Positions 23,968 through 29,310 of a stretch of DNA of 64,000 nucleotides are shown piece after piece (the stretch's first letter is position 1; the number at the start of each line of letters is the position of its first letter). The notes beneath the pieces are model-generated. The model was not told the origin of the DNA, ran no database searches, and worked only from the letters and a program-made list of their open reading frames with translations. Made by a program: the position numbers and the translations under genes. The stretch is from Oceanihabitans sediminis. GTDB lineage: Bacteria > Bacteroidota > Bacteroidia > Flavobacteriales > Flavobacteriaceae. The DNA lies in assembly GCF_003337215.1 (NCBI RefSeq), contig NZ_QPIG01000001.1:1178001-1242000 (forward strand), written 5' to 3'.

Positions 23968-26004
23968 TTATTTAATTAATCCAGCTCTTCTTAAAAGTGC
24001 TTCTGGTTTTGGTTCTTGTCCTCTAAAACGTTTGTATAAGGTCATTGGGTTTTCTGTTCCACCTTTGCTTAATACGTTTTCTTTGAATTTGGAAGCTACT
24101 GTTTTATTAAAAATTCCTTCTTCTTTAAAATATTCAAATGCATCTGCATCTAAAACTTCTGCCCATTTATAGCTATAATATCCGGAAGAATATCCTCCTT
24201 GAAAGATATGTGAGAAAGCGGTACTCATACAGTTTTCAGCTACATCTGGATAAAGCCTTGTGTTTGAAAAAGATTCTTTTTCGTGAGCTTTTACATTTGT
24301 TATTCCGGAAGGATCTTGGGCATGCCATGACATATCTAATAAACCGAAGCTTAATTGGCGAAGCGTTTGCATACCTTCATGAAAAGTAGCAGATTCTTTT
24401 ATTTTCTGAATTAATTCCATCGGAATTACTTCGCCTGTTTCGTAATGTTTTGCAAAAAGTTCTAAAGCCTCTTTTTCGTAGCACCAGTTTTCTAAAACCT
24501 GACTAGGAAGTTCTACGAAATCCCAATAAACACTAGTTCCTGATAAGCTTGGGTAGTTTGTATTTGCTAGCATACCGTGCAGCGCATGGCCAAATTCATG
24601 GAATAAAGTTGTTACCTCGCTAAAGGTTAGGAGAGAAGGCTTGCTTTTTGTTGGCTTAGTGAAATTGCAAACAATAGAAACATGCGGTCTGTCATTGATT
24701 CCGTTTTTAATACTTTGTGATTTGTAACTAGTCATCCAAGCACCATTTCTTTTTCCTGCTCTAGGGAAAAAATCTGCATAGAAAATAGAAACTAATTCTC
24801 CCTTTTCATCCTTTACTTGGTAGGTTAATACGTCTTCATGGTATTTGTCTATCGTATGAATTTCTTCAAATTGTAAACCGAATAATTTGTTAGCTACGGT
24901 AAATGCCCCATCAATAACGTTTTCTAGTTTGAAGTATGGTTTTAGTTGTTCGTCATCTAAGCTGAAGAGTTTTTGTTTTAATTTTTCAGAATAATAAGCC
25001 GAATCCCATTTTTGAAGCGCATCTATATTATCAACTTCTTTAGCAAACTTTTCAAGGTTTTTGAATTCTTCCTGTGCGGCTGGTTTCGCTTTTTCTAATA
25101 ACTCGTTTAAAAAGTCGGTTACTTTTTCAGGAGTTTTAGCCATTCTTTCTTCTAAAACGAAATGAGCATGTGTTTTATAACCTAATAAATTAGCACGTTT
25201 ATGACGTAAGTTAGCAATTTGTAAAACGATATCTTGGTTGTCTAATTCATCATTGTTGAACGCTTTGCTTCCGGAAGCTAGGGCAAGTTTTTTTCTTAGT
25301 TCTCGATTATCTGCATAGGTCATAAACGGAATATAGCTAGGGTAATCTAAAGTAATTACCCAACCTTCTTTTCCTTTAGATTCCGCAACTTGTTTTGCAG
25401 CTTCTTTAGCACCTTCTGGTAATCCAGATAGATCCTCTTCGTTTGTAAGGTGCATTTCAAACTTGTTGGTTTCGGCTAAAACATTTTCGCCAAACTGTAA
25501 TTTCAATTTGCTTAGTTGCTTGTCTATTTCACGAAGTTCTTGCTTTTTGTCCTCCGGTAAATTTGCTCCGTTTCTAGAGAAACCTTTATATTTTTTATCT
25601 AAAAGCGTTGCTTGCTCTGTAGTTAATGTTAAAGCGTCTTTTGCTTCATAAACAGCTTTTACTCTTTTGAATAAATCTTCATTTAGTGTAATGTCGTTAC
25701 TGAATTCTGAAAGTAAAGGAGAAACTTCTTGAGCGATTTTTTGAATTTCATCATTTGTTTCAGCAGAATTTAAATTGAAAAATATACTAGAAATTCTGTC
25801 TAATTGTTCTCCGGCGAAATCTAAAGCTTCTATCGTATTTTCAAATGTAGGTGCTTCAGGATTTGCTGTAATAGCTTCTATTTCAGCTTTTGCATCCTGG
25901 ATTGTTTGTTTAAAAGCAGGAAGAAAATCTTCGTTTTTTATCTTTGAAAAAGGTGCAGTTTGAAATTCTGTATTAAAAGGTTGTGTGAGTATATTCTTGA
26001 CCAT
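23968..26004 (-). CDS. M3-family zinc metallopeptidase (oligopeptidase A / Dcp-like)
   Basis: A 678-residue cytoplasmic-type protein without a signal peptide. The zinc motif HEFGH lies at about residue 465 in TTLFHEFGHALHGML. The C-terminal QGGYSSGYYSYKWAEVLDADAF motif (about 620-640) is the substrate-binding Tyr/Gly region of the M3 family. It should degrade short peptides. Length and motifs fit peptidyl-dipeptidase Dcp or oligopeptidase A; sequence alone does not separate the two. The gene heads a three-gene unit running into the membrane protein and the epimerase. Confidence 0.95.
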   Translation of the reverse strand: MVKNILTQPFNTEFQTAPFSKIKNEDFLPAFKQTIQDAKAEIEAITANPEAPTFENTIEALDFAGEQLDRISSIFFNLNSAETNDEIQKIAQEVSPLLSEFSNDITLNEDLFKRVKAVYEAKDALTLTTEQATLLDKKYKGFSRNGANLPEDKKQELREIDKQLSKLKLQFGENVLAETNKFEMHLTNEEDLSGLPEGAKEAAKQVAESKGKEGWVITLDYPSYIPFMTYADNRELRKKLALASGSKAFNNDELDNQDIVLQIANLRHKRANLLGYKTHAHFVLEERMAKTPEKVTDFLNELLEKAKPAAQEEFKNLEKFAKEVDNIDALQKWDSAYYSEKLKQKLFSLDDEQLKPYFKLENVIDGAFTVANKLFGLQFEEIHTIDKYHEDVLTYQVKDEKGELVSIFYADFFPRAGKRNGAWMTSYKSQSIKNGINDRPHVSIVCNFTKPTKSKPSLLTFSEVTTLFHEFGHALHGMLANTNYPSLSGTSVYWDFVELPSQVLENWCYEKEALELFAKHYETGEVIPMELIQKIKESATFHEGMQTLRQLSFGLLDMSWHAQDPSGITNVKAHEKESFSNTRLYPDVAENCMSTAFSHIFQGGYSSGYYSYKWAEVLDADAFEYFKEEGIFNKTVASKFKENVLSKGGTENPMTLYKRFRGQEPKPEALLRRAGLIK

Positions 26005-26059
26005 GTTTTAAAATTTTGTTAAATTAAAATTTTGTTGTGCGTGCATAGCAATAGTTTTA

Positions 26060-26067
26060 TATATTTG
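26060..26067 (+). promoter_or_regulatory. Promoter of small RNA 1
   Basis: TATATTTG matches TAnnTTTG perfectly on the + strand, with TTG at 26035-26037 as a possible -33 element (22-base spacer). No + strand coding gene follows. The only product would be a short RNA ending at the terminator at 26127-26155. Confidence 0.6.
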
Positions 26068-26073
26068 CCATGA

Positions 26074-26155
26074 TTTTTTTCATATGAGTTGGTTACTCAT
26101 TAATAAAATTATTGATTAATAGCTAGAAAACCTCGACGTAAGTCGAGGTTTTTTT
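26074..26155 (+). ncRNA. Candidate small RNA 1 (tandem pair)
   Basis: A predicted transcript of about 82 bases. It starts six to seven bases after the TATATTTG element. Its body is a T-run, CATATGAG, a small hairpin (ATGAG/CTCAT) and GATTAATAGC. It ends in an 11-bp GC-rich stem with a GTAA tetraloop and a T-run (AACCTCGAC-GTAA-GTCGAGGTT). A near-copy lies 199 bases downstream. A short ORF in it (11 codons from 26084) is not conserved in copy 2, so it is not a leader peptide. No known family was recognised. Confidence 0.6.
26127..26155 (+). terminator. Terminator of small RNA 1
   Basis: An 11-bp perfect stem with a GTAA tetraloop followed by seven T on the + strand. A run of A at the left arm also makes it usable on the minus strand. 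Confidence 0.8.
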
Positions 26156-26257
26156 ATGGAAAAAACTCACATATATTTTGTTTTAACGGATTTATTTGTA
26201 TTTTATCGATAATAGTCAATGGCTTGCTTTAATTTATTCGAATGCGATGAATTATTG

Positions 26258-26266
26258 TAATCTTTG
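26258..26266 (+). promoter_or_regulatory. Weak -7 element of small RNA 2
   Basis: TAATCTTTG has one base more than TAnnTTTG between TA and TTTG. Its final G is 13 bases before the CATGTGAG motif, exactly as in copy 1, so its position supports a homologous promoter. Confidence 0.35.
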
Positions 26267-26272
26267 AATAAA

Positions 26273-26353
26273 GTTTTTTCATGTGAGATATAATCTCTGA
26301 ATTGAAAATTGATTAATAGCGCTTAAACCTCAGGAGAAATCTTGGGGTTTTTG
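26273..26353 (+). ncRNA. Candidate small RNA 2 (tandem pair)
   Basis: A predicted transcript of about 81 bases, related to copy 1. It shares TTTTTTCAT[A/G]TGAG, ATTGATTAATAGC and a terminal hairpin AACCTCAGGA-GAAA-TCTTGGGGTT followed by T-run. The stem has two G-T pairs that are stable as G-U only on the + strand, which argues that the + strand is the transcribed one. Both copies use a GNRA tetraloop. The spacing from motif to motif is conserved (33 versus 31 bases, then 17 bases in both). Function unknown. Confidence 0.55.
26325..26353 (+). terminator. Terminator of small RNA 2
   Basis: A ten-bp stem with two G-T pairs, a GAAA tetraloop and a T run. The minus-strand version would contain A-C mismatches and lacks a good T run, so it is a poor terminator for purE. 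Confidence 0.7.
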
Positions 26354-26355
26354 TT

Positions 26356-26832
26356 TTATAGCCCTTTTGCAGACTCTATAACTTTCAGCTTTAATCCTTC
26401 TTTATAAGTAACAATCTTATCTAATACACAAGCATCTGATGTTCCTATAATTTGCGCTGCAAGAATTCCGGCATTTTTTGCTCCGTTTAAAGCAACAGTT
26501 GCTACAGGTACTCCTCCTGGCATTTGAAGTATAGATAAAACTGAATCCCAACCATCTATAGAGTTGCTACTTTTTACAGGAACTCCAATAACAGGTAGAG
26601 GAGACAAGGATGCTATCATACCAGGTAAATGCGCTGCACCTCCAGCTCCTGCAATAATTACAGCAATCCCATTTTTATGTGCGTTTTTACCATAATCAAA
26701 CATTTTTTCTGGTGTCCTGTGAGCAGAAACAATGTCTACATCTACAGGTATGTCAAATCCTTTTAAAATGTCTATAGCTTCTTGCATTACAGGAAGGTCG
26801 CTTTTGCTTCCCATGATTATGCCTACTTTCAT
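26356..26832 (-). CDS. purE: N5-carboxyaminoimidazole ribonucleotide mutase
   Basis: Converts N5-CAIR to CAIR in de novo purine synthesis. The protein has 158 residues, full length for class I PurE. It has the mononucleotide-binding GSKSDLPVMQEA (8-19), the catalytic His region SAHRTPEKM (about 40-48) and GAGGAAHLPGM (about 63-73). It lies 25 bases downstream of purK, and the pair supplies the two-step, bicarbonate-using route from AIR to CAIR. The purK promoter at 28085-28092 probably serves both. Confidence 0.98.
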   Translation of the reverse strand: MKVGIIMGSKSDLPVMQEAIDILKGFDIPVDVDIVSAHRTPEKMFDYGKNAHKNGIAVIIAGAGGAAHLPGMIASLSPLPVIGVPVKSSNSIDGWDSVLSILQMPGGVPVATVALNGAKNAGILAAQIIGTSDACVLDKIVTYKEGLKLKVIESAKGL

Positions 26833-28200: not shown

Positions 28201-29310
28201 ATGATAAAGTTAGATGATTTATATTTCAAACCATTTATATCTGCTAAAGAGATTGATGCTGCCATACAAAGAATGGTAGATGAGATTGCTGCAGATTTAG
28301 GAGACGAAATCCCTGTATTTGTAGGAATTTTAAATGGTTCCTTTATGCTTGTTAGTGATTTTGTTAAGAAATACCCGAAGCCTTGTGAGGTAACTTTTAT
28401 CAAGTTAGCTTCTTATGAAGGCATAAAATCTTCCGAAGATATCCAAAGATTAATAGGATTGACACAAGATTTAACGGGTCGTACTGTTGTTATTCTTGAA
28501 GATATCATCGATTCAGGAAAAACATTAGCAGAAGTACACCGAATTTTTAAGAACGAAAATGTAAAGTCTTTACTAATAGCTACGCTGTTTCATAAACCAG
28601 AAGCTTATAAGAAAGATTTCAAATTACATTATGTAGGTATTGAGATTCCAGATAGATTTATAGTTGGTTACGGACTAGATTATAATGGATTAGGAAGAGA
28701 TTTGCCGGAAGTATATCAAATTAAAACAACCCAACACATGACAAGTATAGTACTCTTTGGACCTCCAGGAGCTGGAAAAGGAACACAAGCTAATTTTTTA
28801 AAAGAAAAATATAATTTAGTACATATCTCTACAGGAGATGTTTTTAGATTCAATATCAAAAACGAAACTGCATTAGGTATGTTAGCTAAATCTTATATGG
28901 ATAAAGGCGAGTTAGTTCCAGACGAAGTTACTATAGATATGCTTAAAGCGGAAGTAGAGAAAAATGCAGACGCAAAAGGATTTATTTTTGATGGTTTTCC
29001 ACGTACAAACGCACAAGCAGAAGCTTTAGATGCTTTTATGGAAGAGAAAGATTCTCAAATAAATGCTATGGTAGCTTTAGAAGTAGATGACGAAATTTTA
29101 GTAGAAAGATTACTAGAACGCGGAAAAACTAGTGGAAGACCAGATGATGCAGATGAAGACATTATTAGAAACAGAATAAAGCAATACTATAATAAAACAG
29201 CTATTCTTAAAAACTACTATACTGCACAAGATAAATATTATGGAGTAGATGGTGTTGGTAGTATTGAAGAGATAACAGAAAGATTAAACAAAGTAATTGA
29301 TAAGCTATAA
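28201..29310 (+). CDS. Fused hypoxanthine phosphoribosyltransferase - adenylate kinase
   Basis: One 369-residue frame with two complete enzymes. Residues 1-179 are a hypoxanthine phosphoribosyltransferase, with the PRPP-binding VVILEDIIDSGKTL near 97-110; it makes IMP from hypoxanthine. Residues 180-369 are an adenylate kinase: P-loop GPPGAGKGTQ at 187-196, AMP-binding FDGFPRT, and the LID-arginine segment LLERGKTSGRPDDADEDIIRNR. The junction (QIKTTQH-MTSIV) has no stop. An internal in-frame ATG at 28738 could also start a separate Adk. The gene feeds AMP/ADP balance and purine salvage and is divergent from purK. Confidence 0.93.
   Translation: MIKLDDLYFKPFISAKEIDAAIQRMVDEIAADLGDEIPVFVGILNGSFMLVSDFVKKYPKPCEVTFIKLASYEGIKSSEDIQRLIGLTQDLTGRTVVILEDIIDSGKTLAEVHRIFKNENVKSLLIATLFHKPEAYKKDFKLHYVGIEIPDRFIVGYGLDYNGLGRDLPEVYQIKTTQHMTSIVLFGPPGAGKGTQANFLKEKYNLVHISTGDVFRFNIKNETALGMLAKSYMDKGELVPDEVTIDMLKAEVEKNADAKGFIFDGFPRTNAQAEALDAFMEEKDSQINAMVALEVDDEILVERLLERGKTSGRPDDADEDIIRNRIKQYYNKTAILKNYYTAQDKYYGVDGVGSIEEITERLNKVIDKL

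Follow-up and report, generated by a model that had tools for sequence, protein, structure and literature searches.

Two putative tandem small RNA genes beside purE in Oceanihabitans sediminis share a word whose complement appears to lie at the start of other transcripts

The window, a 64,000-nucleotide stretch of the Oceanihabitans sediminis genome, probably contains two tandem genes for trans-acting, base-pairing small RNAs (sRNAs) whose seeds would pair with the starts of a second set of RNAs, called class B here. Each sRNA would carry AUUGAUUAAUAGC between a weak hairpin and the terminator, and this seed would pair with the first 12 to 13 nucleotides, GCUAUUAAU[C/U]A[A/G]U, of class-B RNAs, which appear to start on that word. 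The two genes had been proposed in a sequence-only reading of this DNA. Our main point, which that reading did not contain, is that the 12-mer they share appears to be a genome-wide word with its complement at the starts of other transcripts.

The gap between an M3-type peptidase gene (Peptidase_M3 by Pfam, 23968-26004) and purE (AIR carboxylase by Pfam, 26356-26832) holds two + strand units 199 bases apart. Both flanking genes lie on the minus strand, as had been said, and no + strand open reading frame of at least 40 aa was found between them. Each unit consists of a -7 box, a U-rich start, a weak hairpin, the seed, and an intrinsic terminator. The -7 box of copy 1 (TATATTTG, 26060-26067) is of the TAnnTTTG type, and that of copy 2 (AATCTTTG, 26259-26266) is weaker, with 5 of the 6 fixed bases; TAnnTTTG is given as the flavobacterial sigma-A box in the part of PMC9723704 consulted. 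From the -7 box register and the ends of the T-runs, we predict + strand transcripts of about 84 nt for copy 1 (about 26072-26155) and about 82 nt for copy 2 (about 26271-26352). The proposed 5' ends, 26074 and 26273, thereby move two bases upstream in the TAnnTTTG register. Near the start of each transcript lies a U-rich segment, UUUUUUCAU (26075-26083 in copy 1, with CAU at its end, and 26274-26282 in copy 2), which is complementary to AUGAAAAAA-type start regions. The CAT[A/G]TGAG element begins at 26081 in copy 1 (CATATGAG) and at 26280 in copy 2 (CATGTGAG). The small hairpins (ATGAGT/ACTCAT at 26084-26100 and GAGAT/ATCTC at 26285-26297) are present in both units, as described, and are no better than those of shuffled sequences in either window copy (p 0.24 and 0.58). 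Small-hairpin stems are longer in other copy-2 orthologues than in the window copy 2.

The seed word UUGAUUAAUAGC occupies 26112-26123 in copy 1 and 26309-26320 in copy 2, within ATTGATTAATAGC at 26111-26123 and 26308-26320, respectively. The terminator of copy 1 (26127-26155) has an 11-bp stem and a GUAA loop (stem-loop 26127-26152) followed by a T-run, and that of copy 2 (26325-26352) has an 11-bp stem with two G-U pairs and a GAAA loop (stem-loop 26325-26350), also followed by a T-run. Every element named in the sequence-only reading was found in the order given there (promoter, CAT[A/G]TGAG, hairpin, 12-mer, terminator), including the GNRA loops and the 13 bases from TTTG to CAT[A/G]TGAG in both copies. 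The conserved spacing claimed for the motifs is exact for that distance, but the distance from CAT to the 12-mer is 31 bases in copy 1 and 29 in copy 2, nearly but not exactly equal. Elsewhere in the window, a 369-aa open reading frame (28201-29310, + strand) encodes a phosphoribosyltransferase domain (residues 16-161) and, after it, an adenylate kinase (185-344), so this is a gene fusion of the hpt-adk type.

Neither unit was matched in folding by its dinucleotide shuffles (z -5.2 for copy 1 and -3.9 for copy 2; 0 of 200 as good for each), which we take to be mainly the contribution of the terminators. The seed of copy 2 is unpaired in the minimum-energy fold; that of copy 1 is unpaired in the centroid fold and partly paired in the minimum-energy fold. 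The stems might instead serve as terminators of the neighboring minus-strand genes, purE in particular, rather than belong to sRNA genes. The copy 1 stem would suit that role, as it is about equally good on either strand (-16.0 kcal/mol on the + strand and -15.3 kcal/mol on the minus strand) and lies about 200 nt past the purE stop. However, the copy 2 stem is poor on the minus strand (-5.2 versus -13.4 kcal/mol on the + strand), in accord with the statement that its G-U pairs work on the + strand only, and it lies only about 6 nt from the purE stop codon. The conserved -7 box, the start, and the seed also all read on the + strand, and we regard terminators of the minus-strand genes as a very unlikely explanation. 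As judged from sequence features, the two units are almost certainly sRNA genes, and we infer their transcription from their anatomy and conservation.

In a DNA search of 60 genomes that included this one, 12 had the region, and all six of the other same-genus genomes searched have both copies between the same two flanking frames. We fetched 80 named purE loci using the window's PurE as the query, and units with the same order of parts were read by eye beside purE in 24 of them. The exact 12-mer is present in 14 of the 24 (Formosa maritima, Mangrovimonas, Pontimicrobium, Lacinutrix, Bizionia, Winogradskyella, Ichthyenterobacterium, and Algicola among others), and the Lacinutrix locus carries a tandem pair. 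Two Winogradskyella units have one change in the 12-mer, and the seed has drifted in eight (Tamlana agarivorans, Seonamhaeicola, Hyunsoonleella, Flavivirga, Wocania, Mariniflexile, and one uncultured relative). No unit was seen in the stretches read at the remaining 56 loci, which include Flavobacterium, Maribacter, and Aequorivita. We aligned 41 units: 14 from this genome and the six others of the genus, 4 from other relatives, and 23 from the named loci. Pairing holds in 98.9% of the 369 terminator-stem cells, and both sides have changed in seven of its nine pairs, a result equalled by none of 500 shuffles and by no slid register. The seed keeps its position between hairpin and terminator across the aligned units, and a U-run (T4) ending in CAT is present in 22 of the 41. 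The small 5' hairpin is a recurrent GAG...CTC stem that reaches p ≤0.05 against shuffles in 7 of the 41 units; individual hairpins are mostly no better than shuffles, and covariation was not shown for it in this set. Conservation of the stems in relatives, on which the sequence-only reading had staked its proposal, thus extends to the terminator and is weakly supported for the small hairpin. The genus-wide synteny, the units at 24 of 80 purE loci, and the compensatory changes in the terminator argue that the pair are indeed related sRNA genes in tandem.

The two sRNA genes appear to be members of an undescribed Flavobacteriaceae RNA family. Tandem or multicopy sRNA families such as AbcR1/2, PrrF1/2, and LhrC, whose neighboring or multicopy genes share sequence, belong to other phyla and other regulators. 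In a covariance-model search of the window and eight related loci, no family reached its Rfam gathering score, consistent with the remark that the units fit no known family. Flavo-1 (RF01705) and 6S-Flavo (RF01685) were rejected as identities: neither reached its gathering score (42 bits for Flavo-1) in the window, and both were absent from the 19 matches with E ≤10 in 25900-26500. BTnc231 (RF04180), the best Bacteroidota Rfam match to copy 1 at E ≤10, resembles it in its U-rich start and terminator, but the middle helix contains many non-standard pairs in the match, and copy 1 scores 28.9 bits against a gathering score of 80.4, so this identity was rejected as well. Flavo-1, described in the part of PMC9723704 consulted as an abundant Flavobacteriaceae element in either orientation to transcripts, differs in sequence from the window units, and the 12-mer is absent from 10 of 10 Flavo-1 loci examined. 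Flavo-1 matches number 9 in this genome and 30 to 46 in each of five same-genus genomes, in both orientations.

Among the matches listed from the open-licence literature, none describes a purE-linked sRNA, the 12-mer, or the arrays discussed below, and nothing relevant on sRNAs or sponges in Flavobacteriaceae was found beyond PMC9723704, the nearest report. Its subjects, Rfp18 and other Rfp sRNAs of Flavobacterium psychrophilum, are like the window sRNAs in that they come from Flavobacteriaceae, are conserved beyond the species, are structured, and have predicted mRNA pairing. As far as the consulted part of that paper goes, Rfp18 differs in that its third stem-loop does the pairing and its targets are protease mRNAs; that part makes no mention of the 12-mer or purE. 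At the Flavobacterium purE loci examined, no purE-linked unit was found.

The 12-mer TTGATTAATAGC occurs 7 times in this genome, compared with 1 match for a reversed-pattern control, and each of six further genomes of the genus has 16 to 24 copies (control, 0 to 1). Of 60 genomes, 41 contain it. The 23 genomes from other families of the order come closer to background, with 15 matches versus 5 for the control (counted from the table). We collected 155 distinct occurrences from fetched loci and used 154. A terminator lies no more than 20 nt downstream in 43 of the 154, compared with 16 of 465 random positions, a count that, like the -7 box count given below, retains the distinct copies of a dispersed repeat in one genome (G029). 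All 12 copies of the 12-mer in G029 (L033, L127-L137) lie in this repeat, which is unlike the sRNAs and was set aside as uninformative here. The purE-linked units make up 18 of the 43 pre-terminator words. In these class-A cases, UUGAUUAAUAGC stands just before terminators at several loci (purE, fabH, and others). When searched for as the word, 1 to 8 bases, and AAARCC, the class-A pattern was found in 76 of 299 family genomes, with 1 match for the reversed control, and in 63 of the 236 genera sampled.

Class A has a second locus next to fabH. Among 20 further class-A stretches, the word faces a FabH-like C-terminus on the opposite strand in 13; 12 of these have a TAGTGTTA[G/A]T block ahead of the word in common, and Pfam confirmed ACP_syn_III in the two fabH-linked loci searched. 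This conserved sRNA-like element was seen in 13 fetched genomes (L448-L460), with no exact TAnnTTTG box in the 100 nt upstream of the word. Some short 5' leaders (L015, L016, L099, L102, L077, and L104) carry UUGAUUAAUAGC as well, between a -7-like box and a start codon; such mRNAs could therefore be targets of class-B sRNAs. Neither class accounts for 70 of the 154 occurrences; a part of these lie within genes or in one genome's repeat.

The complement has a place of its own. On the other strand, a -7 box with at least 5 of the 6 fixed bases lies exactly 4 nt before GCTATTAATCAA in 28 of the 154 occurrences (other spacers, 0 to 8). In the TAnnTTTG register, this fixed spacer therefore puts the first G of the complement at the predicted +1, and GCUAUUAAUCAA, the complement of the 12-mer, appears to sit at the start of other transcripts. 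The pattern of promoter plus complement, TANNTTNNNNNNGCTATTAATCAA, was found in 85 of 299 family genomes and in 69 of the 236 genera sampled, whereas the reversed control matched once as read from the table. What follows a class-B start is a terminator within about 75 nt, a terminator and then a gene (for example, a DUF4230 gene), or a start codon 9 to 15 nt after the word. The products include 46-aa peptides with a signal-like N-terminus and lipoprotein-like proteins, both recognized by eye, and an OmpA-domain protein. Two class-B mRNAs (L444:1351-1488, minus strand, and L164:1487-1624, + strand) encode 46-aa peptides with similar signal-like N-termini; the L164 peptide has no Pfam match. A looser pattern ending in GCTATTA gave 18 matches in this genome versus 1 for the control, some of them in genes; a similar pattern gave 74 versus 12 in 12 other genomes, with arrays in several.

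Several observations suggest that the seed likely pairs with class-B 5' ends. Each class has a fixed RNA sense and a fixed place, and the senses are opposite. Among the 299 family genomes, 55 have both classes, 21 only class A, 30 only class B, and 193 neither (odds ratio 16.8, Fisher p 2.5e-21, with genomes counted singly and kinship ignored). Alternatively, the units could be ordinary sRNAs with other targets, while the class-B word is an independent initiation or 5'-stability signal that is complementary by coincidence. Class B does register exactly on +1, as a signal of either kind would, but an exact 12-base complement that co-occurs to this degree is unlikely to arise by chance, and we consider coincidence quite improbable.

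Variation in the two words also points to RNA pairing. Positions 8 and 9 are AT in 53 of the 74 looser class-B matches from the 12 genomes. In those 53, positions 10 to 13, which the search left unfixed, can pair with the seed in 48, 42, 39, and 40 cases, compared with expectations of about half, half, half, and a third, related arrays being counted separately. Where positions 10 and 12 change, they tend to do so by C/U and A/G exchange, which keeps a wobble pair; position 11 showed no wobble preference in the 53 matches. On the class-A side, the variant UUGGUUAAUAGC is pre-terminator in 7 of 19 occurrences (about four loci) and at a promoter start in 0; because it would keep pairing by G-U, we count it for RNA pairing. 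The canonical word in the same set is pre-terminator in 11 to 12 and at a promoter start in 8 to 9 of 39 occurrences. The variant TTAATTAATAGC, pre-terminator in 5 of 14 occurrences, counts against pairing in that it fits only class-B variants with U10. The expectation that UUAAUUAAUAGC, which likewise fits only U10 partners, would be confined to class B was rejected, with 5 pre-terminator and 1 to 2 promoter-start cases among 14.

The same data bear on a reading of the 12-mer as a DNA operator, in which a transcription factor would recognize TTGATTAATAGC whichever way it faces, within class-B promoters at +1 to +12 and downstream in the short class-A genes. The orientation of a DNA site does not matter for its function, and repressors typically bind at +1 to +12; short terminator-ended transcripts in both classes fit this reading too. 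However, the 12-mer core is no clear palindrome, and class-B promoters have a recognizable palindromic box elsewhere, 38 nt before the -7 box. In purE-linked units, the word keeps to one RNA sense and directly precedes the terminator, about 40 nt from the transcript start. The mainly wobble-keeping changes at class-B positions 10 and 12 and the restriction of the UUGG variant to class A (7 versus 0 of 19) likewise argue against an operator, which we think unlikely.

If the seed pairs with class-B RNAs, the predicted duplexes with class-B mRNAs extend past it and include all three start-codon bases in 11 of 17 sRNA-mRNA pairs. With the seed held fixed, the extra leader complementarity beats shuffles when combined over the 17 pairs (Fisher p 6e-5), although the tests lack independence and p exceeds 0.5 in three of them. 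The two duplexes predicted for the class-B mRNA of this genome score -25.6 (p 0.066) and -29.5 (p 0.013). Duplex energies of the window sRNAs with sRNAs of the array described below are mixed compared with shuffles, and several are no better: 165 of 200 shuffles do as well as the duplex of copy 1 and array unit 3, for example, and 82 of 200 as well as that of copy 2 and array unit 1. In the Tamlana/Hyunsoonleella/Wocania/Flavivirga clade, strict co-variation of seed and partner was not found: the purE-linked seed has drifted, while class-B starts are mostly still GCUAUUAAU[C/U]A-like. Drifted purE-linked seeds beside undrifted class-B starts are the strongest result against tight co-evolution.

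Class-B partners would be mRNAs that have very short leaders and encode small secreted, lipoprotein-like, and OmpA-type proteins. Further partners would be leader or attenuator RNAs and sRNAs of about 75 nt, some of them arrayed beside a LuxR-type response regulator gene. Pairing would block the translation of class-B mRNAs, since the 5' part of the sRNA is predicted to extend as far as their start codon. On class-B sRNAs, the purE-linked sRNA would instead act as a decoy, or sponge. The regulatory outcome, repression or sponging, is what we infer from these arrangements; most likely, the purE-linked RNAs would mask the 5' end and start codon of class-B mRNAs and so repress them, and would also titrate class-B sRNAs. 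Alternatives that keep the pairing would be sponging of the arrays or silencing of the purE-linked RNAs by the arrays.

Action by base pairing independently of Hfq is the best reading of the purE-linked sRNAs. An Hfq partnership is typical of many trans-acting base-pairing sRNAs and is not required. Hfq (PF17209) was found in 0 of 21 genomes, this one included, and in 5 of 14 control genomes; its apparent lack in the 21 fits the long perfect seed. By sequence, the units show the marks of trans-acting base-pairing sRNAs in general: their own promoter and terminator outside genes, and a conserved seed with complementary partners in the same genome. Bacteroides likewise has no obvious Hfq, according to the part of PMC7366714 consulted. 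GibS of Bacteroides thetaiotaomicron, as described there, resembles the window sRNAs in coming from a Bacteroidota host without obvious Hfq or ProQ, in being intergenic with its own promoter, an exposed conserved seed, and an intrinsic terminator, and in pairing with translation start regions. It differs in its length of 145 nt, in having the seed in its 5' part, and in high-affinity binding shown for two mRNAs. The window sRNAs, in contrast, have a seed 5' of the terminator that is common to several loci and whose complement appears to start a large RNA class. sRNA regulation in Bacteroidota, where the 21 genomes checked lack a recognizable Hfq, is little known. Complementary words at fixed transcript places give ready lists of sRNAs, sponges, and targets, and Hfq-free target finding by sRNAs becomes directly testable through two-base mutations.

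In this genome, three class-B matches are tandem sRNA units 145 to 146 bp apart (G000:C11:364745-365060; L431, 1501-1890). Similar arrays, with a period of about 146 bp and ACGTA-N-TACGT boxes, were seen in L413 and L417. Folding is strong for two units of the array in this genome (z -5.3 and -5.8), with the first 5 and 10 nucleotides unpaired. In the fetched loci, 16 of 74 class-B promoters carry an ACGTA-N(3-6)-TACGT box whose start is always 38 nt before the -7 box; the proportion is 13 of 19 among array-type promoters and 7 of up to 3000 among random windows. Directly upstream of all three arrays examined (L431, L413, and L417) is a gene with receiver and LuxR-type HTH domains. The orphan-looking gap beside purE thus may be linked to a tandem sRNA array next to a response regulator gene elsewhere in the genome.

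More tentatively, and as something short of probable, the two classes could form a two-sided word system of Flavobacteriaceae that works without Hfq. UUGAUUAAUAGC RNAs (the purE-linked and fabH-linked sRNAs and other pre-terminator sites) would oppose GCUAUUAAU-start RNAs (the response-regulator-linked tandem sRNA arrays, leaders, and small secreted-protein mRNAs). A LuxR-type response regulator would set the balance through the ACGTA-N-TACGT box and so switch a regulon of surface and secreted proteins. In L431, an aspartyl-protease-like gene precedes the LuxR-type response regulator gene. A 33-aa hydrophobic open reading frame follows the last array unit in both L431 (1890-1988, + strand) and L413 (1304-1402, minus strand).
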